Positions 23,688-36,435 of a DNA stretch of 43,177 nucleotides are shown here, piece by piece. The position numbers and the translations under genes are program-made. The DNA comes from Ruminococcus sp. (GTDB taxonomy: Bacteria; Bacillota; Clostridia; Oscillospirales; Ruminococcaceae). The stretch lies in assembly GCA_021199305.1 (NCBI GenBank), contig JAJQIH010000042.1, positions 1 through 43,177 on the forward strand. Direction: 5' to 3'. The notes beneath the pieces were generated by a model that did not search any database, was not told the DNA's origin, and saw only the letters and a program-made list of their open reading frames with translations. The first letter of the stretch is position 1. Every line of letters begins with the position of its first letter.

Positions 23688-26153
23688 ATGACAGTTCAAA
23701 GCGGAAGCACGAAAAAGACTACAAAGAAGAAAGCACTGAAGCCGATAAAGGGAACGGTGCCCGCACCAATCACTGAAAAGGAATTTGAGGAAAAGCTTAT
23801 TGATACGCTTGGCGACTTAAGCCGAACAACTATTGATAAAGCGTCAGATAAGCAAATTTATGAAGCAATTACAACTATCATCGTAAAGCTATTAAAGGAT
23901 AAAAGAAGGAAGTTTGTAAACAAGATTCATTCAGAAGGCAAAAAGCAGGTTTATTACTTGTCAATGGAGTTCCTGATGGGTCGTTCTCTTAAGACGAATC
24001 TTTACAATTTAATGATTAACGATATGGTAAAGGACGTTCTGGATAAGTACGGCATCAATATCGAAGGAATTTACGAGTGTGAGCCTGACGCTGGACTTGG
24101 AAACGGCGGACTTGGACGTCTCGCTGCTTGCTATCTTGACGGACTTGCAACAGACGGATACTCAGGAATGGGATATTCTATCTGCTATGAGTTCGGAATT
24201 TTCAAGCAGAAGCTCGAAGACGGCTGGCAGACCGAGCTTCCTGATAACTGGCTTCCAGGCGGCAAGTCATGGCTTGTTGAAAACTACGACAGAGCTATCG
24301 AGGTTCATTTTGACGGTGAGCTTGAAGAATACTGGGACGACCAGTACCACTGCGTAAACCACGTTAATTATTCAACAGTAAACGCAGTACCGGTTGATAT
24401 GTATGTCGCTGGTTACGACAGCGAAGCGGTTTCAGTTTTAAGACTCTGGAGAGCTGTAACGCCGTCGTTTGATATGAATATGTTTAACAAGGGCGACTAC
24501 TCCAAGGCTTTGGGTCAGAATATTATGGCTCAGGCAATCTCCAAGGTTTTGTACCCGAACGACAACCACGCAGAGGGTAAATCTTTAAGACTTCGCCAGC
24601 AGTATTTTATGTGTGCTGCGTCTGTCGGCGATATTGTCGACAAGCATATGAGAACCTACGGAACGCTTGACAATCTTCACGAGAAGGTTGCAATTCACGT
24701 AAACGACACTCATCCGACTCTTGCTATTGCAGAGCTTATGAGAATACTTTTGGACGACTGCGGTTATTCGTGGAACAAGGCTTGGCATATCGTTACAAAC
24801 ACATTTGCTTATACAAACCACACAGTAATGGCGGAAGCGCTTGAAAAGTGGGACTGCAACCTTGTAAGACAGGTTATTCCGAGAATTTTCTCAATTATCG
24901 TTGAGATAAACAATCGTTACTGCAAGGATTTGTGGGACAGAACAGGCGACGAGCCAAGAGTTTCGAGAATGTCTATCATTCAGAACAATCAGGTTAAAAT
25001 GGCAAATCTTTGCGTTCACGCTTCACATTCCGTAAACGGCGTTGCAAAGATTCATTCAGAAATCATCAAGCAGGACGTTTTCCACGACGAGTATCTTGAC
25101 ACACCTAATAAGTTCAAGAACGTAACAAACGGAATTGCTTTCAGAAGATGGCTTTTGCAGTCTAATGAAGGACTTACGAATCTTCTCCGCGAAAAGATTG
25201 GCGATGGCTTCTTAAAGGACGCTTCCGAGCTTTCAAAGTTCAATATGTTCAGAAACGACGACGATGTTTTAAACGCTCTTGCCGATATTAAAAGGGAAAA
25301 TAAAGCAAACTTTGCGAAGTACGTCAAGAACCAGTACGGAACGGTTCTGAATGTTGATTCAATTTTCGACGTTCAGGTTAAAAGACTTCACGAATATAAG
25401 CGTCAGCACTTAAATGTTCTGAACATTTTAGCTGAGTACAACTATCTGCTTGAAAATCCTGACGCTGATTTTACACCAAAGACTTATATCTTTACAGCTA
25501 AGGCGGCTCCTGGATATTATCTTGCAAAGCAGATTATAAAGCTTATCTGGTCGCTGGGCGAGGAGCTTAAGAAAAATCCGAAGATTAACGAAAAGCTTTC
25601 AGTTGTATTCCTTGAGGATTACTGCGTATCGCTTTCTGAGATACTTATGCCTGCAAGTGAAATCTCCGAGCAGATTTCATTAGCTGGAACAGAAGCTTCC
25701 GGAACAGGTAATATGAAGCAGATGTTAAACGGCGCTATTACTTTAGGAACTATGGACGGCGCAAATGTTGAAATTCACGAGGTAGTAGGGGACGAGAACA
25801 TTATCACATTCGGTATGACTGCCGAAGAGGTAGTTGCACGCAAGTCCAGCTATCACCCTGAAAAGTATTATAACGAAAACGGAATTATCCGTGCAGCAGT
25901 TGACAGAATGACTGGCGGAATTAACGGCAACACCTTTGAGGAGGTTGCAAATTCCTTGAAGTACAGCGACCCGTATATGGTTTTGGCTGACTTCGATTCT
26001 TACGCTCACGCTCAGTCCGTTTCAAGTGAATTGTACAGAGATCAGAAGAAGTGGCAGCAAATGTCGCTTGCTAATATTGCCGGTGCAGGAATTTTCTCAG
26101 CTGACCGTTCTGTTGAAGACTACGCAAGAGACATCTGGGGACTCAAAAAGTAA
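23688..26153 (+). CDS. glgP: Glycogen/maltodextrin phosphorylase
   Basis: An 821-residue GT35 phosphorylase that releases glucose 1-phosphate from alpha-1,4-glucans. It carries YYLSMEFLMGRSL near the N-terminal side, EPDAGLGNGGLGRLAACYLD, the substrate loop DTHPTLAIAELMR, the RLHEYKRQ motif, and the pyridoxal-phosphate site EASGTGNMKQMLNGA with Lys677. The first 30 residues are Lys-rich and not conserved. It has its own promoter and terminator, and GGAGG sets the start. Mobilised sugar would feed the glycolytic genes upstream. Specificity for glycogen over maltodextrin cannot be decided here. Confidence 0.95.
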   Translation: MTVQSGSTKKTTKKKALKPIKGTVPAPITEKEFEEKLIDTLGDLSRTTIDKASDKQIYEAITTIIVKLLKDKRRKFVNKIHSEGKKQVYYLSMEFLMGRSLKTNLYNLMINDMVKDVLDKYGINIEGIYECEPDAGLGNGGLGRLAACYLDGLATDGYSGMGYSICYEFGIFKQKLEDGWQTELPDNWLPGGKSWLVENYDRAIEVHFDGELEEYWDDQYHCVNHVNYSTVNAVPVDMYVAGYDSEAVSVLRLWRAVTPSFDMNMFNKGDYSKALGQNIMAQAISKVLYPNDNHAEGKSLRLRQQYFMCAASVGDIVDKHMRTYGTLDNLHEKVAIHVNDTHPTLAIAELMRILLDDCGYSWNKAWHIVTNTFAYTNHTVMAEALEKWDCNLVRQVIPRIFSIIVEINNRYCKDLWDRTGDEPRVSRMSIIQNNQVKMANLCVHASHSVNGVAKIHSEIIKQDVFHDEYLDTPNKFKNVTNGIAFRRWLLQSNEGLTNLLREKIGDGFLKDASELSKFNMFRNDDDVLNALADIKRENKANFAKYVKNQYGTVLNVDSIFDVQVKRLHEYKRQHLNVLNILAEYNYLLENPDADFTPKTYIFTAKAAPGYYLAKQIIKLIWSLGEELKKNPKINEKLSVVFLEDYCVSLSEILMPASEISEQISLAGTEASGTGNMKQMLNGAITLGTMDGANVEIHEVVGDENIITFGMTAEEVVARKSSYHPEKYYNENGIIRAAVDRMTGGINGNTFEEVANSLKYSDPYMVLADFDSYAHAQSVSSELYRDQKKWQQMSLANIAGAGIFSADRSVEDYARDIWGLKK

Positions 26154-26174
26154 TTTCATTGAATTTAAATTCTC

Positions 26175-26205
26175 AAAAGCGAGGTGAAAATTCCTCGCTT
26201 TTTTC
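26175..26205 (+). terminator. glgP terminator
   Basis: AAAAGCGAGG (26175-26184) pairs with CCTCGCTTTT (26193-26202), with further T residues after the stem. Confidence 0.88.
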
Positions 26206-26250
26206 TTTGCTATATTTAACGCAAATGTCAACAATTCCCACAAAAAGCGA

Positions 26251-26279
26251 TTGACAGATTGAGCTTTATATGGTATTAT
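26251..26279 (+). promoter_or_regulatory. Promoter of the GH5 gene
   Basis: Consensus -35 TTGACA (26251-26256) and TATTAT (26274-26279), 17-nt spacer. I see no clear operator or catabolite element nearby. Confidence 0.8.
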
Positions 26280-26326
26280 TAAACAAATAGCTGATAATTT
26301 TCAGACTAATATATGGAGGTTTAATG

Positions 26327-28138
26327 ATGAAAAAGAGATTTTTTCTTAAAAGGCTTGTCACAAGCGTTTTAGCAGCTGCTGTCACAGTTACAACAATCTG
26401 TACTGCACCTATCACAGTTTCTGCTGAAGATACGTTTGACGACCTGGATCAGTACGAAATTGTTGAAGCAATGTCACCTGCCTGGAACTTAGGAAATCAG
26501 CTTGAAGCTACAAGCAACGGTACTCCTAACGAAACTGTATGGGGAAATCCTACTATTACAATGGAAACTCTTCAGATGGTTAAGGACGCTGGCTTTAACG
26601 CAGTAAGAATTCCAGTTTCTTACCTTAACTATATCGGCGATGCAGATTCAAATTACGAAATCAAAGGAGATTGGCTTGACAGAGTTCAGGAAGTAGTTGA
26701 CTACGCTTATGATATTGGTTTGTATGTTATTATCAATATGCACGGCGACGGATACTATTCTGTTCCAGGAAGCTGGTTGCTTTGTGCTGAAAGTGCAGAG
26801 GAGCAGGTTGAAATCAAGAAAAAGTACGCTGCAGTCTGGGAGCAGATTGCCAACAGGTTCAAGGACTACGATGAACACTTGATTTTCGAGTCGATGAACG
26901 AAGAACATGACGGCAACTACAATGGCCCATCCGACGAGTATTACGCTAACATCAACGACTACAATCAGATTTTCGTTGATACAGTTCGTCAGACAGGCTC
27001 AAATAACGCTAAGCGTTGGTTGCTTGTTCCTGGCTGGAACACCGACATCACCTACACAGCAGGTGATTACGGCTTTGAAATTCCAACAGATACATACAGA
27101 GATTCATCCATTCCAGAGGACGAGCAGAGAATTATGATTTCTGTTCACTACTATAATCCTTGGGATTTCTGCGGCGAAGAGTCGACAGACGTTACAACCT
27201 GGGGAACAGACGCTGAAATTCAGACTATTGAGGACTATTTCGTTAAGTGCTACAAGAAGTTTGTCCTCGAAGGCTATCCTGTAGTTATCGGCGAGTACGG
27301 CTCGATTGACAAGTCTAACACAGAAAGCAGAGCTTTGTTTGCAAGCGAGGTTTGTAAGGCAGCAAGAAGCATGAGCATGGTACCAGTTTACTGGGATAAC
27401 GGCTGGAACGGAACTTACGGCTTTGCACTCTTTAACAGAACAACAAAGAAGGTAACTCAGCCTGAAATTATTGCAGCAATTATGGAAGCTTATGAAGGCG
27501 AAGCAGAGCCAGCTCCAGACATTGAAGACGCTATCACAAAGGACGAGGCGCTTGCAGTAATATACTACTCAAAGGCAGACGGAGCGGTAACACTTGATTC
27601 AGGAACAGTTGATTCTGAAATCGAAGGCGCAACAAGCATCAGAATTACATTCGACTGCGCATCAGACGTTACATTCAGCCAGTACACATCACTCAATGTT
27701 ATTGAGACTTTAAACGATGTTACAACAAAGACAACCGTTACTGGCGAAAGCGAGCTTGAGGGCGCAACAGCACTTACAATTACTGTTGATTTAAGCTCGG
27801 AGCTTGTTTCAGGCGATACCTATTCAATAAGCGCTTACACGCAGTCATGGAAGGACGCTGACGACTATGTATTCCTTATTCGTTCGGTTGAATATTTAGA
27901 TGCTAACGGAAATGTTCTGAAGACAGTTGTTAAGAGCGACAGACTACCAGGCGACGTAAACAACGACGGAAAGGTAACAACAGCAGATGTAGGTCTTGCA
28001 AACAGCCATGCTAAGGGCGTTACAACTCTCACAGGCGACGACTTTGATGCTGCTGATGTAAACGGCGACGGCTCAGTTACAACCGCAGACGTTGGACTTA
28101 TCAACTCCCACGCAAAGGGCGTTAAGCTACTTTGGTAA
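26327..28138 (+). CDS. Secreted GH5 endoglucanase with C-terminal dockerin
   Basis: A 603-residue secreted glycoside hydrolase. A signal peptide (residues 1 to about 33, ending TVSA) is followed by a GH5 barrel to about 390: WNLGNQLEA, NAVRIPVSY, the acid/base Glu192 in FESMNEEHD, SVHYYNPWDF, the nucleophile Glu323 in VVIGEYGS, and YWDNGWNG. Residues about 400-540 form a beta-rich domain that could be a carbohydrate-binding module or a spacer; I cannot name its family. A type I dockerin (about 542-603) with two near-identical calcium repeats, DVNNDGKVTTADVGLANSHAKG and DVNGDGSVTTADVG, should bind a scaffoldin cohesin. The second ATG is chosen because GGAGG (26315-26319) is seven bases before it. 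Substrate is probably beta-1,4-glucan, with mannan or xyloglucan possible. Confidence 0.92.
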   Translation: MKKRFFLKRLVTSVLAAAVTVTTICTAPITVSAEDTFDDLDQYEIVEAMSPAWNLGNQLEATSNGTPNETVWGNPTITMETLQMVKDAGFNAVRIPVSYLNYIGDADSNYEIKGDWLDRVQEVVDYAYDIGLYVIINMHGDGYYSVPGSWLLCAESAEEQVEIKKKYAAVWEQIANRFKDYDEHLIFESMNEEHDGNYNGPSDEYYANINDYNQIFVDTVRQTGSNNAKRWLLVPGWNTDITYTAGDYGFEIPTDTYRDSSIPEDEQRIMISVHYYNPWDFCGEESTDVTTWGTDAEIQTIEDYFVKCYKKFVLEGYPVVIGEYGSIDKSNTESRALFASEVCKAARSMSMVPVYWDNGWNGTYGFALFNRTTKKVTQPEIIAAIMEAYEGEAEPAPDIEDAITKDEALAVIYYSKADGAVTLDSGTVDSEIEGATSIRITFDCASDVTFSQYTSLNVIETLNDVTTKTTVTGESELEGATALTITVDLSSELVSGDTYSISAYTQSWKDADDYVFLIRSVEYLDANGNVLKTVVKSDRLPGDVNNDGKVTTADVGLANSHAKGVTTLTGDDFDAADVNGDGSVTTADVGLINSHAKGVKLLW

Positions 28139-28171
28139 AACGGCTAACATCAGAATACTGAAAACTAAAAT

Positions 28172-28204
28172 AGCAGCAGGCACTTTTGTCTGCTGCTTTC
28201 TTTA
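28172..28204 (+). terminator. Terminator of the GH5 gene
   Basis: AGCAGCAG (28172-28179) pairs with CTGCTGCT (28190-28197), followed by a T-rich tail with one C. Confidence 0.8.
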
Positions 28205-28252
28205 TTCGGATATAGCGGGAACTGAAATCTGACATTTTTATTTGCGAAGAAT

Positions 28253-28292
28253 CTCGTACTGCCTGCTATTTAAGAATAAATCTTAACATTCT
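28253..28292. repeat. Dispersed repeat, copy 1 (CTCGTACTGCCTGC type)
   Basis: These 40 bases match 40139-40178 at about 32 of 40 positions, with the first 17 identical (starting CTCGTACTGCCTGC). This copy lies between the convergent GH5 and PARG-like genes. The matching copy is downstream of the DUF815 gene. Its nature is unknown. Confidence 0.65.
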
Positions 28293-28314
28293 TTTTTCTC
28301 TTTCCGCTTGCTGT

Positions 28315-29331
28315 TCACCCTCCTCCCCCAAAATTCCTGTAAAATTCTTTATAGTTATAGTCCTTGCTAGGTCGGCAAAGCACAGCAAACTGAATAGAAT
28401 CATACAGCTGACTGCTGTCTTTTCCGTTGAAGCTAAAGCTGTGTATGGCACGTTCAAATAAATCTGATACTTCGGATGCGTCGTTTCCGTATATGCCGCA
28501 CCCGAAAGCACCCAGAATCAGATGACGATATCCACAAGAAGCCGCAACCAGAAGTATGCCGTTAATGCGATTAAGAAGCATAGCTTCATATTCCTGCTGT
28601 GACATACCCTCAAGTCCCAGCCGAATCATCGGAGCAGCACAGCTTATAATAGAAACAGGGAAGGGCGTATCAAGCGTTTCGGAAGTGTTTTTAATAACCT
28701 CTACGTTCGGTGACAATATAATGCCGTCTGATCCCATTCGTGTTTTTAACGCTTCGTTATATTGGTAATACTTTTTCGCAGCTTCACTCTCTAAAGACAA
28801 CAGGAGCGAAGTCCTTCGGCAAAGATCCTCCTCCTGCGCGCTTGCACCTTGCCTTGTGTGACCGCCCGGGTGAGTAGCGCTCGCTAAATTGAGCAGAAGT
28901 ATTTCAGGATTTTCCTCTCCGTTTTTCTTTAAAGCATTGTATTTTTTCTGCGCAAGAGCCAGAGCGTCGGCGTTTTCACAGCTAAAAGAGCATGGAGAAG
29001 CTTGTAGCTTGTTATCAACATTGCCAGCTTTTGCTGTATCATTTAAAGCTTTGATGTCGTCAGGCAAAAACACTTCTGCTATTTGCATTTGCTCTTTTGT
29101 ATAGCGAAGCTTGATGCTTCTGTTGCCTTTTTTGTAGCATCCGCTATCAAGAATACTCAGCGTATCATTAAGCTCGTCAATGTTTTGCTTTTTCCTCATT
29201 TCCTTTTGCCGCTCTTTTTGCTGAATTTCTTCCTCGGAAAGTCCTGCGTATTCGGCGTTGCGCATTTTAGCCGCTAACTGCTTTAGCCTTTCCTCTTCGG
29301 AAAGATTTTCCTGCTTAGCCATTTTCTTCAC
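28315..29331 (-). CDS. PARG-like ADP-ribosylglycohydrolase (TIGR02452 family)
   Basis: A 338-residue protein of the microbial TIGR02452/DUF2263 family, which has the macrodomain-like fold of poly(ADP-ribose) glycohydrolase. The catalytic loop reads HPGGHTRQGASAQEE (154-168), matching GGG-X6-8-QEE with the third Gly replaced by His158; Glu167 and Glu168 are the expected catalytic pair. The phosphate-binding loop GAFGCGIYGND (274-284) and the CAAPM segment are also typical. The first 50 residues are a charged, helical extension with two LSEEE motifs. A GTG start at 29331 and an ATG at 29322 are both possible. Its start overlaps the sirtuin gene by 17 bases. It probably removes ADP-ribose added by the adjacent sirtuins; the targets are unknown. 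Confidence 0.87.
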   Translation of the reverse strand: MKKMAKQENLSEEERLKQLAAKMRNAEYAGLSEEEIQQKERQKEMRKKQNIDELNDTLSILDSGCYKKGNRSIKLRYTKEQMQIAEVFLPDDIKALNDTAKAGNVDNKLQASPCSFSCENADALALAQKKYNALKKNGEENPEILLLNLASATHPGGHTRQGASAQEEDLCRRTSLLLSLESEAAKKYYQYNEALKTRMGSDGIILSPNVEVIKNTSETLDTPFPVSIISCAAPMIRLGLEGMSQQEYEAMLLNRINGILLVAASCGYRHLILGAFGCGIYGNDASEVSDLFERAIHSFSFNGKDSSQLYDSIQFAVLCRPSKDYNYKEFYRNFGGGG

Positions 29332-30049
29332 GCCTTTCTTTCAGCTTTTTAAATACGTCGTCGCAATCCTCCCGAATGTTAAGCGCAGCCACGCTGTCAA
29401 AGCCTGTGCGACCGGGATTTATCTGTATAATTACAGCTCCTCTGTTTCGATAACCCCAATATACATCGCCGTAGTTTCCACGAGTTCCAATAGCAAGAAT
29501 CAGATCTGCTTGTGAAATCCATTCTCTTGCTTTGCGGACATCTTCCTCCCATAATCCAATATGACTGTACAGCGGCCAGGGGAGTATTTCGCCTCCGCAG
29601 GATTTACAGCGTGGAAGCTCATCCTGCTTCCAGATTTCATAGCCGTCGTAATGCTGTCCGCAGTCGGCACAGCAGTTAACCTGAAGGCTTCCTTGAATTT
29701 CAGCAACATTTTTTGAACCAGCTATTGTGTGCATACAGTCCACATTTGTGGTGATAATTCCGAGAAGCTTTCCTTCATCCTCCAATTCCTTTAAAGCGTA
29801 ATGACCGAAGCTCGGCTGATATGAAAACATATTATCAAGATATGTCGGCAGGAAGGAGCTGTAACTGTCGCCGCTTCTTCTCATTCTGCCAGCGCCACGA
29901 TTGGAAAACAGCATTTGTCCATACGTTACACCTCCGCCTCCAACAGAAATTCCTGCGCCTGTAGTTGCAACGATATTGTGACTGCTGTCAATAAAAGCGG
30001 CCAGTTGGCCTATCTGGTCTGTTGTTTGACTGCTCTTGAAAAAACTCAT
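29315..30049 (-). CDS. Divergent class M-like sirtuin 1 (H-to-Q)
   Basis: A 244-residue Sir2-fold protein. The NAD loop GAGIS is at 31-35 but is followed by VGGGGVTYG instead of the usual SGIPDFR. TTNVDCMH (100-107) corresponds to TQNID-LH. Where deacetylases have the catalytic His in a LHG motif, this protein has EIQGS with Gln119. Two zinc pairs, Cys127/Cys130 and Cys148/Cys151, and the C-terminal AIGTRGNYG and IIQINPG are present. The missing PDFR and the Gln resemble the ADP-ribosylating class M sirtuins (SirTM) as I recall them, rather than lysine deacylases. It lies 12 bases after a second sirtuin and overlaps the PARG-like gene, so addition and removal of ADP-ribose are probably coupled. 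Confidence 0.85.
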   Translation of the reverse strand: MSFFKSSQTTDQIGQLAAFIDSSHNIVATTGAGISVGGGGVTYGQMLFSNRGAGRMRRSGDSYSSFLPTYLDNMFSYQPSFGHYALKELEDEGKLLGIITTNVDCMHTIAGSKNVAEIQGSLQVNCCADCGQHYDGYEIWKQDELPRCKSCGGEILPWPLYSHIGLWEEDVRKAREWISQADLILAIGTRGNYGDVYWGYRNRGAVIIQINPGRTGFDSVAALNIREDCDDVFKKLKERREENG

Positions 30050-30061
30050 ACCTACACTCCT

Positions 30062-30787
30062 TTATCCATTCATTACCTTATCGAATACCTCGGCTGCGTC
30101 GGCACGAATATTCAGATTTGCAATTTTATCAAATTCAGTTGCAGACGGATTTATCTGAACCAGAGTAGTAGTATCTTTCATACGACTTAGATACTCGTCG
30201 CTGCGAAAGCCAGTAGTTCCAATTATAATAACCAAGTCCGATTCGGAAATCATATCAGTAGCTTTTTCCATATTTTCGTGTGAAGTGATAGCGCTGGCTC
30301 TGCTGTTTCGTAAAAAGCAGGTCGGCATTAAAGGAGCGCCGCATTTTTCACAGCAGGGCATATGTCCCTGATTCCATACTGTATAATCATAGCAGCGGCT
30401 TTCGCATTCAATACAGATGTTATCTCTGAAGCTGCCTTGAAATTCCACAACATTTTTTGACCCCGCAATAGTATGCAGACAGTCAAGGTTTTGTGTAACA
30501 ATCCCATAGATTTTTCCTTGCCTTTCAAGCTCTGCAAGCTGCCTGTGAACGGCGCTGGGTCCCTTTACAAAGGTTGCGTCAAGAAATGCGTCCTTCATCG
30601 TAGCATAAAACTTTTCCGGGTTTTTGCGTATATACGAAGGGGAAAATATCCGACCCGCATTCATTATACCAACGCTCTGCTTTAGCCTTCTCATTCCGTA
30701 AAGATATGAAATTCCAGCTCCCGTTACAGCAACAGTCTTTTTGCTTCTCGCCATATATTCCTTTAACTGAATGTGTTCTTGTTCCAT
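30062..30787 (-). CDS. Divergent class M-like sirtuin 2 (H-to-Q)
   Basis: A 241-residue Sir2-fold protein, paralogous to the sirtuin that follows it. GAGIS is at 23-27, followed by YLYGMRRLK instead of SGIPDFR. TQNLDCLH is at 98-105, and the catalytic His position is Gln117 (EFQGS). Zinc pairs are Cys125/Cys128 and Cys146/Cys149. IIIGTTGFRS and LVQINPS form the second half of the NAD site. A longer in-frame reading starts at 30832, but AGGAGG on the minus strand (about 30797-30802) selects ATG 30787. Two H-to-Q sirtuins in tandem suggest separate substrates or a heterodimer. Activity as an ADP-ribosyltransferase is inferred from the residue pattern only. Confidence 0.85.
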   Translation of the reverse strand: MEQEHIQLKEYMARSKKTVAVTGAGISYLYGMRRLKQSVGIMNAGRIFSPSYIRKNPEKFYATMKDAFLDATFVKGPSAVHRQLAELERQGKIYGIVTQNLDCLHTIAGSKNVVEFQGSFRDNICIECESRCYDYTVWNQGHMPCCEKCGAPLMPTCFLRNSRASAITSHENMEKATDMISESDLVIIIGTTGFRSDEYLSRMKDTTTLVQINPSATEFDKIANLNIRADAAEVFDKVMNG

Positions 30788-30825
30788 TTTAAGTAGCCTC
30801 CTGTCAACCAAATTACATACAGCAA

Positions 30826-30859
30826 CACCCATCGGAGAGTAAATTCCCTTCGGTGGGTG
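30826..30859. other. Stem-loop between the nitroreductase and sirtuin genes
   Basis: CACCCA (30826-30831) pairs with TGGGTG (30854-30859), and the inner part pairs better on the plus strand (two G-U pairs) than on the minus strand (two mismatches). No T run follows in the direction of the operon. It may be a processing site or partial attenuator. Confidence 0.4.
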
Positions 30860-30892
30860 CCAATTGTTTAAATGCTTAAATCTTTAGCGTGA

Positions 30893-31561
30893 TCACATCC
30901 ATGTGAAGTTGTCCGTACCAGCGCCAAGCTCAAAGTGGTATTTGACTATTCCAAGATCAGCGCCTGAAAATGAACCGTTGTTGCAGGATATGCTGACTTT
31001 ATTCTCTTTGCCTTTTATCGAAAAAGCCTGCTTATTCATAGCCGTTGGAGCTAATAGAGCGGATGTAACGCCTTCATTGAACCATTGTGGCGCAGTGCCT
31101 TCATAGGATGACACTTCTGCTGCCGCTTTGGACTTGTGCGCAACGCCTTGCTCTTCGCCATAGCCTACTGCTACTACTCCGATGATTTTAGCGTCGTCAC
31201 CGGCATTTGAGTTCTTCCTTGCGCCCTTGCGACTGAACATTCCTCCAATCCACCAGGTGTTCAAGCCGAGCGTTTGTGCGTACAGCATTAAATCTGCGCT
31301 GCTGTATCCCAGCTTTTCATCAACATCTGCTGAATCAGGACCCGCAAGTATGATATAGTTTCTGACGCCCTTTGACATAAGCAGTGCTATAATGCCAGGC
31401 ATTGAATCCTTGTTGTTCGTAACAAGCTGCATATTCAAGCCGAATTTCTGATTCTGAGCTTCAATTCGCTCGTTAAGCTTAACTACCGAGTCCTTCGCCA
31501 ACGGTTCGTTTTTATACTTGCGAACTGAGTGCCGTGCGCTCATTGCTTCCTTTAAATTCAT
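30893..31561 (-). CDS. Nitroreductase-family protein
   Basis: A 222-residue flavoprotein of the nitroreductase superfamily. The N-terminal EAMSARHSVRKYKNEPL holds the Arg/Ser/Arg residues that bind the FMN phosphate, and a later segment GLNTWWIGGMFSRKGA (about 99-114) is the usual cofactor and substrate region. The C-terminal half (about 150-222) resembles the part seen in putative TM-nitroreductases, a group whose substrates are mostly unknown. It would use NAD(P)H and FMN. It lies 42 bases after the first nitroreductase gene and before the sirtuins on the same strand. It may produce NAD+ or sense redox state, but no direct link to the sirtuins is known. Confidence 0.8.
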   Translation of the reverse strand: MNLKEAMSARHSVRKYKNEPLAKDSVVKLNERIEAQNQKFGLNMQLVTNNKDSMPGIIALLMSKGVRNYIILAGPDSADVDEKLGYSSADLMLYAQTLGLNTWWIGGMFSRKGARKNSNAGDDAKIIGVVAVGYGEEQGVAHKSKAAAEVSSYEGTAPQWFNEGVTSALLAPTAMNKQAFSIKGKENKVSISCNNGSFSGADLGIVKYHFELGAGTDNFTWM

Positions 31562-31603
31562 AGCTAACCTCCATAACTATTGCCCTGATACGTCAAGCAT
31601 TCT

Positions 31604-32134
31604 CTAAATATAGTTCGTTTCAATAGAAACAGATATATTTCTCGGCTGTGCTTCGCCACTCTTGCTGTAGCCCAGCGCAGCTGCAGAAACAGGTCTGAAT
31701 CCTTCAGGAATACCCATTTTATCACACAGCTCTTTATTCTTAGACAGAGCCTGTACACCGCCCCAAAGATAAATGTTATCTACTCCTGCGTCTGTTGCGG
31801 CAAGTAGCATATTCTCAATAACGCAAGCGGCATTTGCGTACTCAATTCCCGGTGCCATTTGTTTTTCGCTTGCGCTTAGAAAAATGACAACTGGTGCGCT
31901 ATAGAAGAAATCTCTCGGTTCCATTTTCATAGCAGCGGCGGTTGTCTGATTTATTTCGTCGAGAATTTCTCTGCTGCTGCATACAGTTAAATGAAGAGAG
32001 TCCTTTTTGCCAGCGCCAATTGGAGCCTGACAGCCTGCCTTTACGATTGTATCAACAATTTCATCTGCAACCGTTTTGTCAGGGTCAAAATCCCTTGTTG
32101 ATTTTCTTCTTGCTATAGCTTCTGATGTTTGCAT
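31604..32134 (-). CDS. Nitroreductase-family protein, first gene of the sirtuin operon
   Basis: A 176-residue flavin-dependent nitroreductase-like enzyme. The N-terminal EAIARRKSTRDFDPDKTV is the FMN-phosphate motif, CQAPIGAGKKDSLHLTV is the second conserved stretch, and AACVIENMLLAATDAGVDNIYLWG with a C-terminal ALGY completes the superfamily pattern. The reading extends in frame to 32149, but GGAGG at 32143-32147 (minus strand) is inside that extension and is the ribosome binding site for ATG 32134. It is the first gene after a perfect promoter with two operators. Substrate unknown. Confidence 0.82.
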   Translation of the reverse strand: MQTSEAIARRKSTRDFDPDKTVADEIVDTIVKAGCQAPIGAGKKDSLHLTVCSSREILDEINQTTAAAMKMEPRDFFYSAPVVIFLSASEKQMAPGIEYANAACVIENMLLAATDAGVDNIYLWGGVQALSKNKELCDKMGIPEGFRPVSAAALGYSKSGEAQPRNISVSIETNYI

Positions 32135-32150
32135 AGAAAACGCCTCCATA

Positions 32151-32171
32151 ATGTAATCTTTATGGTTACAT
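32151..32171. promoter_or_regulatory. Operator 1, ATGTAA-N9-TTACAT
   Basis: A 21-bp inverted repeat whose arms are ATGTAA (32151-32156) and TTACAT (32166-32171). It covers the expected transcription start of the nitroreductase-sirtuin operon and touches its -10 element. Confidence 0.75.
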
Positions 32172-32198
32172 TATACAGCCTTTAAAATGTAATGTCAA
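32170..32198 (-). promoter_or_regulatory. Perfect consensus promoter of the sirtuin operon
   Basis: On the minus strand TTGACA (32193-32198) and TATAAT (32170-32175) are separated by 17 nt, both exact consensus. The -35 lies in the centre of operator 2 and the -10 abuts operator 1, so the promoter should be strong but fully repressible. Confidence 0.9.
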
Positions 32199-32208
32199 GA
32201 GTTACATT
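32186..32208. promoter_or_regulatory. Operator 2, ATGTAA-N9-TTACAT
   Basis: Arms AATGTAA (32186-32192) and TTACATT (32202-32208) with a 9-nt centre, centred 36 bp from operator 1. It encloses the -35 of the minus-strand promoter and overlaps the -35 of the divergent Rrf2 promoter by one base, so it can regulate both. Confidence 0.78.
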
Positions 32209-32236
32209 TGATTTTTTCAGAAAAATCTGCTATACT
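32208..32236 (+). promoter_or_regulatory. Promoter of the Rrf2 gene
   Basis: TTGATT (32208-32213) and TATACT (32231-32236), 17-nt spacer. Its -35 touches operator 2, suggesting autoregulation. Confidence 0.7.
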
Positions 32237-32276
32237 GTTCTGTACAAACACTATACAGCGGAAAGAGGGCGATTAT

Positions 32277-32752
32277 ATGCGGATAAGCAAACGGTTTCCA
32301 TTGGCGGTACATTCGTTGTTGTTCGTAGCGGTTTTATCTCCTGAAAGCGTGTAACAAGCGCTCTTGTTGCGGAAAGCACACGTTCTAATCCAGTCACAGT
32401 CAGAAATATTTTTCTCAATCTTTCAGATAGCGGACTGCTGATAGCCTCGGCAGGGAAAAACGGCGGCGTACACTTAGCAAGAGAACCAAAAGATATAACT
32501 CTGTGGGATATTTATGAATCTGTTGAGCTCAAAGACGTAAATAAGATTTTTAATATGTACGAGGGAAGCGACACCTGTCCGGTAGGTAAAAATTTCTATC
32601 AGATTCTGCACCCTCACATGGTAGCGGCTTCAAACGGTATGAAGGCGGAAATGGAAAAGGTAACCCTGGAAACGCTAATGTCTGAGCTAAAAGAGATGCT
32701 TAAAACTTCGCCGTTGGAAACCTGTCAGGCAAAATCTTTAAAGCAACAATAG
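32277..32752 (+). pseudogene. Rrf2-family repressor, frameshifted
   Basis: The first 25 codons (MRISKRFPLAVHSLLFVAVL...) match the start of Rrf2-family winged-helix regulators and then hit a stop at 32352. From 32351 the next frame continues with the recognition-helix region VTSALVAESTRSNPVTVRNI, the wing SAGKNGGVHLA, and a C-terminal half to 32752 with the typical DTCPVG. Dropping one of two GT units at 32349-32352 restores a 157-residue protein, so the lesion is a 2-nt duplication. Only one Cys lies in the usual cluster region, so it is closer to YwnA-like than to cluster-binding IscR/NsrR proteins. It is divergent from the sirtuin operon across the shared operators and is its likely regulator. 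A sequencing error cannot be excluded. Confidence 0.82.
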
Positions 32753-32824
32753 AATACAGGAGAAAAATCTTAGGGGCGGCAGCAAACAGATCTGTGATTG
32801 TGGTACAAAAAGGAAGGTAATGCT

Positions 32825-33523
32825 ATGCTACAAATCAAAGATATTCACAAACAATACAAAACCGGAGATATAATTCAAAACGCATTAGACGGAGTTTCGC
32901 TCAGCTTCAGAGAAAGCGAATTTGTCGCAATTCTTGGCTCAAGCGGTTCTGGAAAAACAACGCTTTTAAATATAATCGGTGGTTTGGACCGTTACGACAG
33001 CGGCGACCTTATCATCGACGGCGTTTCAACCAAAAAATACAAGGACAGAGACTGGGATACTTACCGAAACCATTCTATTGGATTTGTATTCCAAAGCTAT
33101 AACCTTATCACACACCAATCGGTGCTTGCAAACGTTGAGCTTGCACTGACTCTTTCGGGAGTTTCAAGAGCAAAGCGAAAGGAACACGCCGCTCAGATGC
33201 TTGAAAAGGTAGGACTTGGCGATCAGCTTCACAAAAAGCCAAACCAGCTTTCAGGCGGTCAGATGCAGCGAGTAGCCATTGCAAGAGCATTGGCGAACAA
33301 CCCTAAAATTTTGCTTGCTGATGAGCCGACTGGTGCGCTTGATACCAACACAGGCATTCAGGTGATGGAGCTGTTAAAAGAGGTTGCAAAAGACCGACTG
33401 GTTGTAATGGTAACTCACAATCCCGATCTGGCGCAGCAGTACGCTACCCGTATTGTAAGACTACAGGACGGTCAGCTGATTTCTGATTCAAATCCGCTTT
33501 CCGAACAGGAAGGAGGGGAATAG
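32825..33523 (+). CDS. MacB/LolD-type ABC transporter ATPase
   Basis: A 232-residue ATPase subunit. Walker A GSSGSGKT is at 38-45, the Q-loop in GFVFQSYNLI, the signature LSGGQ at 142-146, Walker B with LLADEP (Asp166, Glu167) and the H-loop in MVTHNPDLA. The sequence belongs to the MacB/LolD/FtsE group, which works with FtsX-fold permeases that move without transporting through the membrane. AGGAAGG at 32811-32817 sets ATG 32825. The permease follows two bases after the stop. No separate promoter is evident; it may be read through from the Rrf2 gene 72 bases upstream. Confidence 0.93.
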   Translation: MLQIKDIHKQYKTGDIIQNALDGVSLSFRESEFVAILGSSGSGKTTLLNIIGGLDRYDSGDLIIDGVSTKKYKDRDWDTYRNHSIGFVFQSYNLITHQSVLANVELALTLSGVSRAKRKEHAAQMLEKVGLGDQLHKKPNQLSGGQMQRVAIARALANNPKILLADEPTGALDTNTGIQVMELLKEVAKDRLVVMVTHNPDLAQQYATRIVRLQDGQLISDSNPLSEQEGGE

Positions 33524-33525
33524 AG

Positions 33526-36435
33526 ATGCCAAAAAATAAGAAAAAGCACTCCTCAATGTCCTTCCTGACAGCGCTTGGACTTTCAGCCAACAATCTGCGA
33601 ACCAAAAAGGGAAGAACTATTATGACTTCCTTTGCGGGAAGCATTGGTATTATTGGTATTGCGCTGATTCTTGCGCTTTCAAGCGGCGTTAATGAATACA
33701 TTCAGTCGATTGAAGAGGATACGCTTTCTGAGTACCCACTACAGATTACAAATTCTGAGTTTGACCTTACATCGCTGATGGCGGCAATGTCCTCAACTGT
33801 TGGAGATTCAGGTTCAGACGATGCTGAAATTTCAGTAACCGAAATCGTGTCTACACTATTTTCCGAGATGAATTCAAACGACCTTGCTTCCTTAAAAGAG
33901 TATATAGACAGCGGCGAAAGCGACCTTGAAAGCTATTCCACCGCCGTTGAGTATGTCTACGACCTGGAGCCTGAAATTTATCTTGCGTCAGACGATTCAG
34001 TTCGCAAGGTCAACCCCAACACAACTTTAAGCTCTGTCAGCGGAAATTCTATGCTGACAACTATGATGTCATCTTATGGTATCACTTCGTTTTACGCAAT
34101 GCCAGACAGCGAAGCGCTTTATAAGAACAAATATGAGGTAAAGGCTGGACGCTGGCCGAAAAACTACAATGAGTGCGTGCTTGTGCTTACATCTGACGGA
34201 AGTATAAGCGACTATATGCTTTACGCTTTAGGTTTAAGAGATTATTCAGAGCTTGAAGCCATACTGAACAATTATTTAAACGAAGAAAGTACGACCTCGT
34301 ACCAGAACAGCGACAGCTATTCTTATGAAGACGTTCTCGGCACAACCTACAAGGTAGTCTGCGCCGCAGATTATTACGCTTACGACAGTGAGTATGACGT
34401 CTGGGTTGATAAAACTGAAAACACAGATTATTTAAACGAGCTGGTTGAAAACGGCGAGGACCTGACGATTGTCGGCGTCGTTCAGCCGACAGAGGACTCT
34501 GCTTCAACGCTTTCGACTGGTATCAATTATTCCTCCTCGCTGATTACTCATATGGCGGAGCTTTCAGCAAAAAGCGATGTCGTAAAGGCACAGCTTGCAA
34601 CGCCCGACGTAAATATTTTTACAGGAGAAGCGTTTGGCGAGAGCGACAACAGCTTTAGCCTGGATTCGCTGTTCTCGTTAGACGAAGAAGCGCTTGCAGA
34701 ATTGTTCGACTTCGATTCGTTGAGCATAGATTCATCAGAGCTTGATATGTCCTCGCTTAGCATTGATACAGACTCTCTTCTTTCAGGGCTGGATACAGCA
34801 GACCTGTCGATTGACACCGACTTTTTAGAGGACTATCTGTCTGATTACGAGATAGATACAAGTTCGCTTGACCTTTCAGAAATGGATTCAATTTCAATAG
34901 ACCTCTCCGAGCTTGATTTAAGCGGAGTTCTTGACAGTATCACCGCAGATATTTCCGAAGACGCAGTTTCCACACTGCTCAACAATCTGCTTGCTGGCTA
35001 TCAATCCTATTCTGAAACCGTTGGCATTTCATACACCGATTTGAGCGAGGATTTTTCCAATTATTTACAAAGCGATGAAGCACAACAAATTATCGTCGAT
35101 TTTCTGAGCAGTCATATTTCAGTCGGAGATTTTTCTGTTTCCCCTGAAGGGTTATCCGATGCGATAGCTTCGGTAATTCCCGAGGACGAGGAAATAACCT
35201 CAGCAGATATCGAAAAGGTTACTGCCGCTGTGACGGCATATATAAATGAGAATGCTGAAATTTCTGTCAATATAAGCGATGAAGATTTAGCGACCCTTTC
35301 ATCTGCTCTCGTTTCTGGATATTCAGCATCTGCTACAATAGATTTAAACGCAATAAGCGAGAGCTTCAGCGATTATCTCAGCTCAGATGCCGCTATGCAA
35401 ATTCTATCGGACGGTCTTGCTGAAATGCTTGACTGGGATTCATTGCAAAGCCAGCTTAATTCAGCGGTTGAAAGCTATTTGCAGGAAATGATGTCTTCGG
35501 TAGTTTCGTCTTATATTGATGCCGTTGAAGCACAGCTTTTAAGCCTTACGGAACAAATGCAAGCGGAGCTTACATCAGCTCTCACCACAGAAATTTCCAC
35601 ACAGATTGACAGCATTATGGAATCGTCGGTCGACGACCTGATGAGCCAGATTTCAGAGCAGCTGTCGACCGAAATGGAGTCTTTATTTGAAAGCTCAATA
35701 AGCAATTTGCTGACGGCTGACAGTAGCTCGATACTTGAAGCCTTCGGACTTGAGATGGACGCTGACGAGCTGTCCGAACTGCTTCTGTCTATGAGCAATT
35801 CATCAAGCACAGATTACGAAAGCAATCTTGAAACGCTGGGGTATATAGATTTTGACACGCCAACAGAGATTGACATTTATCCTATAGACTTTGAAGCTAA
35901 GGACAGGATAGTAGAAATATTGGACGACTACAACAATCAGATGGAGGAATCGGGAGAAACAGAAAAGGTTATCACCTATACCGATTTAGTTGGCACAATG
36001 ATGTCGTCTGTAACAACTATTATCAATGTTGTCACTTATGTTCTTATTGCTTTTGTAGCGATTTCGCTTGTCGTTTCGTGCATTATGATTTCCATTATTA
36101 CGCAAATTTCCGTAATGGAGCGAACCAAGGAGATTGGTATTCTGCGAGCAATTGGCGCTTCAAAGCGAAATATCTCAGAGGTGTTTAACGCTGAAACCTT
36201 TATTATCGGAATAAGCTCAGGACTTATCGGAGTTGTAATTTCAAAGCTTTTGATTATACCGATAAATGTGTTGATTCATTGGCTTGCTGGTTCGACAAAC
36301 GTCAATGCAGTTTTACCCTGGAGCTACGCTTTTATTCTGGTAATTATCAGCGTTGTAATTACAGTTCTGAGCGGACTTCTCCCTGCGAGAAAGGCTGCAA
36401 AAATGAACCCTGTTACAGCATTGCGAACCGAGTAA
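33526..36435 (+). CDS. FtsX/MacB-type permease with giant acidic extracellular domain
   Basis: A 969-residue membrane protein. One helix lies near the N-terminus (about 31-52), and three at the C-terminus (about 830-858, 882-908 and 925-950), ending in the conserved LPARKAAKMNPVTALRTE. This is the MacB/FtsX topology, but the extracellular part is about 775 residues instead of the usual 200-250. Residues about 375-480 are rich in Ser, Asp and Leu with repeating SIDTDSL/DLSELDLS units, and about 640-740 look like a long helical or coiled-coil segment. The protein is strongly acidic. The ATPase is the gene before it. It may export a lipid or peptide or transmit force to the cell wall; function is unknown. 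Confidence 0.85.
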   Translation: MPKNKKKHSSMSFLTALGLSANNLRTKKGRTIMTSFAGSIGIIGIALILALSSGVNEYIQSIEEDTLSEYPLQITNSEFDLTSLMAAMSSTVGDSGSDDAEISVTEIVSTLFSEMNSNDLASLKEYIDSGESDLESYSTAVEYVYDLEPEIYLASDDSVRKVNPNTTLSSVSGNSMLTTMMSSYGITSFYAMPDSEALYKNKYEVKAGRWPKNYNECVLVLTSDGSISDYMLYALGLRDYSELEAILNNYLNEESTTSYQNSDSYSYEDVLGTTYKVVCAADYYAYDSEYDVWVDKTENTDYLNELVENGEDLTIVGVVQPTEDSASTLSTGINYSSSLITHMAELSAKSDVVKAQLATPDVNIFTGEAFGESDNSFSLDSLFSLDEEALAELFDFDSLSIDSSELDMSSLSIDTDSLLSGLDTADLSIDTDFLEDYLSDYEIDTSSLDLSEMDSISIDLSELDLSGVLDSITADISEDAVSTLLNNLLAGYQSYSETVGISYTDLSEDFSNYLQSDEAQQIIVDFLSSHISVGDFSVSPEGLSDAIASVIPEDEEITSADIEKVTAAVTAYINENAEISVNISDEDLATLSSALVSGYSASATIDLNAISESFSDYLSSDAAMQILSDGLAEMLDWDSLQSQLNSAVESYLQEMMSSVVSSYIDAVEAQLLSLTEQMQAELTSALTTEISTQIDSIMESSVDDLMSQISEQLSTEMESLFESSISNLLTADSSSILEAFGLEMDADELSELLLSMSNSSSTDYESNLETLGYIDFDTPTEIDIYPIDFEAKDRIVEILDDYNNQMEESGETEKVITYTDLVGTMMSSVTTIINVVTYVLIAFVAISLVVSCIMISIITQISVMERTKEIGILRAIGASKRNISEVFNAETFIIGISSGLIGVVISKLLIIPINVLIHWLAGSTNVNAVLPWSYAFILVIISVVITVLSGLLPARKAAKMNPVTALRTE

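Follow-up and report, generated by a model that had tools for sequence, protein, structure and literature searches.

Two glutamine-type sirtuins and a PARG-family hydrolase in a Ruminococcus operon: a candidate module for reversible ADP-ribosylation

We describe a five-gene operon in which two sirtuins are combined with a hydrolase of the poly(ADP-ribose) glycohydrolase (PARG) family and which may serve reversible ADP-ribosylation. It is located on contig JAJQIH010000042.1 of Ruminococcus sp. (assembly GCA_021199305.1; genome of 1.74 Mb), of which positions 1–43,177 were analysed; this whole stretch of 43,177 nucleotides is called the window. Five open reading frames (ORFs) on the minus strand (28315–32149) were confirmed. 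NR1 (31604..32149; PF00881, 59.6 bits; likely start ATG 32134) encodes a nitroreductase-family flavoprotein and NR2 (30893..31561; PF14512, 214 bits) a full-length TM1586-type nitroreductase. They are followed by the sirtuin genes sirA (30062..30832; 82.8 bits for PF02146; likely start ATG 30787) and sirB (29315..30049; 75.0 bits for the same family, cut-off 24 in both cases) and by the hydrolase gene (28315..29331; TIGR02452, 143.5 bits with a cut-off of 50, and PF10021; likely start ATG 29322), whose product has a charged N-terminal extension. The start codons at 32134, 30787 and 29322 were assigned by sequence reading. With ATG 30787 as likely start, the glutamine at the catalytic position of SirA is residue 117; that of SirB is Gln119. 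With ATG 29322 as likely hydrolase start, sirB and the hydrolase gene overlap by probably 8 bases (ATGGCTAA); an initial annotation of this DNA had correctly noted an overlap, but its length of 17 bases holds only with GTG 29331 as start. Relatives were collected by a SirB scan with one genome per species, which yielded 128 stretches and 106 relatives; the best 80 were kept as loci L034–L113. Compared with the nearest one, L034 (titled Ruminococcus sp.; SirB identity 96%), the ratio of nonsynonymous to synonymous substitution rates is low for all five genes (NR1, 0.08; NR2, 0.05; SirA, 0.06; SirB, 0.12; hydrolase, 0.23).

A single promoter precedes the five genes (TTGACA-17-TATAAT; 32170..32198, minus strand). 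It agrees with the consensus at 12 of 12 positions, as does no other of the 10 promoter-like sites found over 4.8 kb (8.2 expected). Together with the ORFs and profile scores it confirms the arrangement proposed initially, namely two nitroreductase-family genes, two sirtuin genes and a TIGR02452 hydrolase gene under one promoter. New relative to that annotation are a divergent Rrf2 gene, two operators and an altered glycine loop in the hydrolase. The operators are perfect copies of AATGTAA-N9-TTACATT: copy 1 (32186..32208) covers the −35 box and copy 2 (32150..32172) overlaps the −10 box at its end and extends over the bases that follow. With up to two mismatches the pattern is found at five places in the window (0.29 expected), the remaining three having two mismatches each and being located away from the promoter. 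In the entire genome these two copies are the only perfect ones, and allowing one mismatch gives four places as compared with one for the backward control.

The divergently oriented gene (32277..32752, plus strand; start ATG by sequence reading) encodes a regulator of the Rrf2 family. In the window it is split into the overlapping frames 32193–32354 and 32345–32752, and the downstream piece alone passes PF02082 (77.1 bits, cut-off 30). The gene is intact in relatives, L034 among them; the split may thus be a true loss, which might leave the operon unrepressed, or an assembly error. In 32 relatives the Rrf2 gene is divergent; between it and the next matched gene, 27 of them have GTAA-N9-TTAC, 24 have TGTAA-N9-TTACA and 21 the full arms. 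Across the 884 kb of the 80 loci TGTAA-N9-TTACA occurs 33 times and the backward pattern once. Since the operator copies sit at the operon's own promoter and recur beside divergent Rrf2 genes in relatives, we infer that Rrf2 is a local, dedicated regulator, which would bind the two operators and sense the redox state.

SirA and SirB carry glutamine in place of the catalytic histidine and lack PDFR, two features already recognized in the initial annotation and borne out by sequence and alignments. With the window included, glutamine is found at this position in all 68 aligned SirA sequences and in 112 of 113 sequences of the SirB type, and histidine is kept in each of the 25 ordinary sirtuins read (24 family matches and the host's own CobB). 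The first SirB at locus L109 has glutamate in place of glutamine; this locus as well as L039, L056, L111 and others contain second and third SirB-type copies. In common with CobB/Sir2 deacylases the two proteins have the overall fold, the NAD+ site and the four zinc cysteines, while the catalytic histidine, PDFR and the VVLYE strand of ordinary sirtuins are replaced. GAGxS and TxNxD are retained, and the zinc cysteines plus Asn and Asp of TxNxD are invariant in the alignments of both types (68 SirA, 113 SirB). The predicted models (predicted local distance difference test values of 88.5 for SirA and 73.1 for SirB) show a sirtuin fold with a four-cysteine zinc site.

By profile and fold these Gln-sirtuins are most like ordinary deacylases, yet the 14 members of the SirA/SirB kind included in the tree form a separate branch (moderate support, 86/70) without the catalytic histidine. 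A grouping with active deacylases, named initially as an outcome that would refute the proposal, therefore applies by half: it is true of overall similarity and not of the tree position. This bears on the idea that SirA and SirB are lysine deacylases which use glutamine and act on an acyl group of an unusual kind, with the acyl-ADP-ribose product then being taken away by the hydrolase. Overall similarity is compatible with such a role; we nevertheless regard it as improbable because neither PDFR nor the catalytic histidine nor the VVLYE strand is retained. The precedent of the class M sirtuins (SirTM) also counts against it: no deacylase activity was detected for these His-to-Gln enzymes, which are ADP-ribosyltransferases (PMC4518038).

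Class M provides the closest biochemical parallel, and the initial annotation had placed SirA and SirB near it. This kinship was not supported. The class motif GVGx[NT]TP, which binds the pyrophosphate and is kept in four aligned SirTMs, is replaced with GTTGFRS in SirA and GTRGNYG in SirB, and SirTM lies on one side of a 100/100 branch that excludes SirA/SirB-type sequences; QG for HG is common to both. The two Gln clades may or may not share an ancestor (69/79). Among the profile and structure matches listed there was no SirTM chain (5A3x codes), which is evidence neither way. Class M membership was ruled out by motif, tree and neighbouring gene. The host genome possesses a true SirTM/Zn-macrodomain pair elsewhere (L115; contig 3 of this genome, G000, 24982–28755), together with a PNPOx-ferredoxin gene; the single Zn-macrodomain match of the genome (NF003163) is located there, beside SirTM and on a contig other than that of the operon. 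No GcvH-like ORF was seen within the 3.8 kb examined at L115.

Published work indicates that SirTM modification is reversed by the macrodomain protein of the same operon (PMC4518038; PMC11490716; PMC7050489), that histidine in place of glutamine abolished SpySirTM activity, and that Asn118, Gln137 and Arg192 are needed (PMC4518038). Near the aligned place of Arg192, the residue in contact with the glutamine, in a gapped region, SirA has an arginine that is not invariant in relatives, and SirB has none there. In the literature covered, class M is the setting in which reversible ADP-ribosylation by sirtuins is described, and GcvH-L is the one established target. The operon described here resembles the SirTM/Zn-macrodomain operons in that a His-to-Gln sirtuin is encoded next to a macrodomain-fold ADP-ribose hydrolase (PMC4518038, PMC11490716). 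Flavin-type oxidoreductases near some SirTM operons and a published link to the redox response are further likenesses. By contrast, the Gln-sirtuins belong to another clade, lack GVGx[NT]TP and have a shorter zinc module; the eraser is of the PARG family rather than a Zn-macrodomain protein; and there are two sirtuins (up to four in relatives) plus an own Rrf2 gene. As stated initially, the sirtuin is duplicated, the eraser is of PARG type, and the GcvH-L and lipoate ligase (LplA2) partners are absent from the operon; in a genome-wide search, which did not include LplA, GcvH gave only a match below cut-off (20.3 versus 22.2 bits).

Gene order is largely conserved, which together with the low substitution ratios sets the operon apart from a chance arrangement. 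At 65 of 74 loci with sufficient room the start of SirA is found no more than 1.5 kb upstream of SirB, and the hydrolase gene lies within 3 kb downstream of SirB at 43 of 52 testable loci, which agrees with the co-occurrence with TIGR02452 expected from the initial annotation. Median gaps are 10 bases for SirA–SirB (69 pairs) and −14 for SirB–PARG (64 pairs). Of the loci, 51 extend 3 kb or more upstream; they contained SirA in 44 cases, the hydrolase in 38, NR1 in 26 (distant matches counted), NR2 in 10 and Rrf2 in 21. From these counts the sirtuin–sirtuin–hydrolase set emerges as the core, with the flavoproteins as frequent companions; a flavodoxin is found at 15–16 other loci. A small protein of 100 amino acids with a CxxCxxCC-like motif, below the Pfam cut-off, is encoded at 22 loci (for example L082, 6957–7265). 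Its gene directly precedes sirA at eight of them and overlaps the SirA ORF (median −22 bases); the protein is a candidate target or metal partner.

The hydrolase shares with bacterial PARG (DUF2263/PF10021/TIGR02452) its family score, the QEE motif and the GAFG phosphate loop. Retention of QEE, part of the initial description, was borne out by the alignment (QEE in 22 of 22 aligned hydrolases, GAFG in 21). It differs in its N-terminal extension, its sirtuin neighbours and the loop preceding QEE. The bacterial PARG signature is GGG-X6-8-QEE (PMC3519477; PMC5966428), whereas in the window hydrolase the third glycine is histidine. Members of TIGR02452 are rare in the class, with 5 of 118 when the own one is counted, and GGG is present in all four other members. 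As the loop is altered, the substrates of the hydrolase may not be those of known PARGs, and the bond that it cleaves may be a different one.

The interpretation that we favour, and to which we would give about an even chance, is that the operon encodes a stress-induced on/off module for reversible, NAD+-dependent ADP-ribosylation. The dedicated Rrf2 repressor is predicted to bind the pair of operators overlapping the sole promoter, with redox or electrophile stress as the probable cause of its release. Induction would then supply two flavin reductases, the paralogous Gln-sirtuins and the PARG-fold hydrolase. SirA and SirB most likely would transfer ADP-ribose from NAD+ to a target, perhaps as a pair, and the hydrolase would remove it again; this assignment of writers and eraser is made by analogy with SirTM only.

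Several points weigh against this interpretation. The different clade and the uncertain Arg192 equivalent make the analogy weaker, and with the class motif missing from SirA and SirB the biochemical precedent stems from another clade. The profile and fold matches listed for the Gln-sirtuins are headed by ordinary lysine deacylases, and ADP-ribosylation activity in the SirA/SirB family is a prediction from sequence. The GGG loop of the hydrolase is altered in 62 of 64 relatives, which have GG[QHRK] (one has GGG and one was unmatched by the pattern). Within the tested spans SirA is missing at 9 of 74 loci and the hydrolase at 9 of 52. These misses are of mixed cause: SirA is located farther upstream at L059 and the hydrolase upstream of SirA at L065, while L053 and L057 have NR1–SirB–PARG with no SirA match, and no hydrolase was seen at L072, which is among the nine lacking it. 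Finally, the Rrf2 gene of the window itself falls into two frames, and 5 of the 32 loci with divergent Rrf2 do not have even GTAA-N9-TTAC.

The nitroreductases are possible targets of the proposed modification. However, 21 of 51 loci lack a nitroreductase in the span that begins 3 kb ahead of the sirtuins and ends 4 kb behind them; an obligatory nitroreductase partner is thereby ruled out, and the nitroreductases are unlikely to be the sole target. The flavoprotein link emphasized initially holds insofar as nitroreductase-family genes are often near, but it is less special than claimed, because two flavin-type oxidoreductases are likewise encoded in published extended SirTM operons (PMC4518038). 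NR2 differs from other TM1586-type nitroreductases (PF14512) in its link to a Gln-sirtuin in three settings: the operon, one genome of another clostridial family (G1121) and one viral contig. The latter two contain a minimal version consisting of MarR, NR2 and a Gln-sirtuin, which in G1121 (L154) form one run. NR2 of the window is 55–57% identical to both counterparts, and the two sirtuins fall within the SirA/SirB branch. Four further genomes of the G1121 family gave weaker matches, with histidine in three and one unmatched by the pattern.

That NR2 is the sole enzyme beside the sirtuin in both minimal modules fits another model, in which the Gln-sirtuins are sensors of NAD+ or ADP-ribose, or plain NAD+ hydrolases, that tune flavoenzymes, and the hydrolase disposes of O-acyl-ADP-ribose or of ADP-ribose esters. 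Loss of the catalytic histidine is in line with this model, and the two paralogues could form a regulatory heteromer. We consider it quite unlikely, as Asn and Asp of TxNxD, the zinc cysteines and most surrounding residues are retained throughout the 68 and 113 sequences, and the class M precedent (PMC4518038) is a catalytic one.

Some loci run directly into genes of other enzymes. An AMP-ligase, a GNAT protein and an esterase are encoded at 20, 21 and 20 of the 80 loci, respectively, and none of the three is matched in the window. The median gap from PARG to the AMP-ligase gene is 26 bases (15 loci), and the following gaps are 1 and 16 bases. At L056 (from 4927 onward) and 19 other loci these genes stand close behind the sirtuin and hydrolase genes like a cassette of small-molecule type. 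ABC-transporter cluster members are present at 17 of the 80 loci. It is thus conceivable that the system detoxifies small molecules: the nitroreductases would reduce an electrophile of plant or microbial origin, the Gln-sirtuins would conjugate ADP-ribose to the product, GNAT, AMP-ligase, esterase and ABC transporter would finish the process, and the hydrolase would recycle ADP-ribose. ADP-ribosylation of a small molecule has a precedent in Arr, which modifies rifampicin, and three of the loci come from koala, a eucalypt feeder. This possibility appears unlikely to us since the additional enzymes are confined to 20–21 of the 80 loci and unmatched in the window, and since the hydrolase would reverse the conjugation. 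Moreover, we know of no sirtuin that modifies small molecules by conjugation of ADP-ribose.

The viral copy of the minimal module (MarR, NR2, Gln-sirtuin; L163, 3897–5696) is carried by IMGVR_UViG_3300013830_000222, a viral contig of 66 kb, the only one retrieved in viral scans with three queries. The genes before it encode a tape-measure protein and a phage protein without known function, and those after it a tail-protein relative, a holin and an endolysin; on this one contig it looks like phage or prophage cargo. Its position among tail genes could also indicate an NAD+-depleting cassette for anti-phage or inter-phage defence. We consider this highly improbable: PADLOC gave only two weak matches (E values of 0.003 and 0.067; this included no screen of the neighbourhoods for defence genes), and the cassette has a transcriptional regulator of its own.

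Close relatives of the operon are few. SirB is matched at E ≤ 1e-20 in 122 of 297 genomes of the window's family, of which only the own genome and four others (G143, G027, G267, G271) exceed 60% identity, the rest being at 42% or less. G027 has Rrf2–NR1–NR2–SirA–SirB–PARG in the window's order, with NR2 matched in two pieces; G271 has the same five genes with no Rrf2 match; G267 contains the cluster without a hydrolase match, and a short contig of G143 carries the sirtuins together with the hydrolase. Among 341 genomes of the class there were five SirA matches at E ≤ 1e-31 (own, two at 67–74% identity, G1121 with glutamine and G1011 with histidine). A wide distribution was ruled out, as the SirA profile at E ≤ 1e-60 recovered one of 398 phylum genomes, the own one; likewise, the G1121 sirtuin query at 1e-36 recovered one of 398, again the own genome. 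Plasmid and phage collections gave 25, 37 and 53 matching records, all below 60% identity, and the seven stretches read all had histidine. As regards vertical descent versus transfer, the SirB tree requires eight changes of family as compared with a minimum of four, 39 of its 80 rows being without family name.

All 80 loci are contigs of metagenome-assembled genomes (MAGs) from three accession blocks (MSH, 3; JAJB, 10; JAJP/JAJQ, 67). L042, L091 and L099 are from MAGs bearing the name Zagget, a Lone Pine koala (PMC5697889). Stretches of up to 7.9 kb with 90–96% DNA identity connect L091 and L099 with JAJ contigs (L042 shares none above 300 bases), which suggests, and does not show, that the JAJ contigs are from the same kind of host. 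With the 80 loci confined to three blocks, and the MSH ones being from koala, the cluster may mark one host habitat. It is tempting to extend our preferred interpretation: SirA and SirB would represent a second Gln-sirtuin clade beside class M, which as a pair writes a mark that a re-tooled PARG erases under an own redox switch, in a portable stress-tolerance cassette that has spread among Firmicutes in the gut of eucalypt-feeding hosts and also into phage. We put this forward as tentative, with more doubt than confidence.

While the combination of a sirtuin with a macrodomain-fold eraser is already known, the other Gln-sirtuin clade, the PARG-family eraser with altered loop, the doubled sirtuin and the Rrf2 gene with its operator pair appear to be new. 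No description of this sirtuin/PARG operon was found in the literature covered, which was open-access only. A computational survey of NAD-using systems from 2012 (de Souza and Aravind) may mention similar neighbourhoods. If the proposed module is real, the logic of Gln-sirtuin and eraser recurs with other parts and no lipoyl partner, and the operon offers a system for finding the role of a Gln-sirtuin where GcvH-L is absent as well as a PARG homologue with a changed signature glycine loop. The three accession blocks, one of which is certainly from koala faeces, suggest a habitat that can be tested.

In the flanks of the operon, an ABC ATPase and a permease-like protein of 969 amino acids, both read by eye, are encoded past the regulator (32798–36435); the latter has a very long middle region rich in serine and acidic residues. 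On the other side, a terminator-like stem-loop (28172..28197; 11 pairs and a T-rich tail) lies between the operon and the convergent plus-strand gene upstream. It is a weak call, with five such sites found as compared with 5.1 expected by chance.

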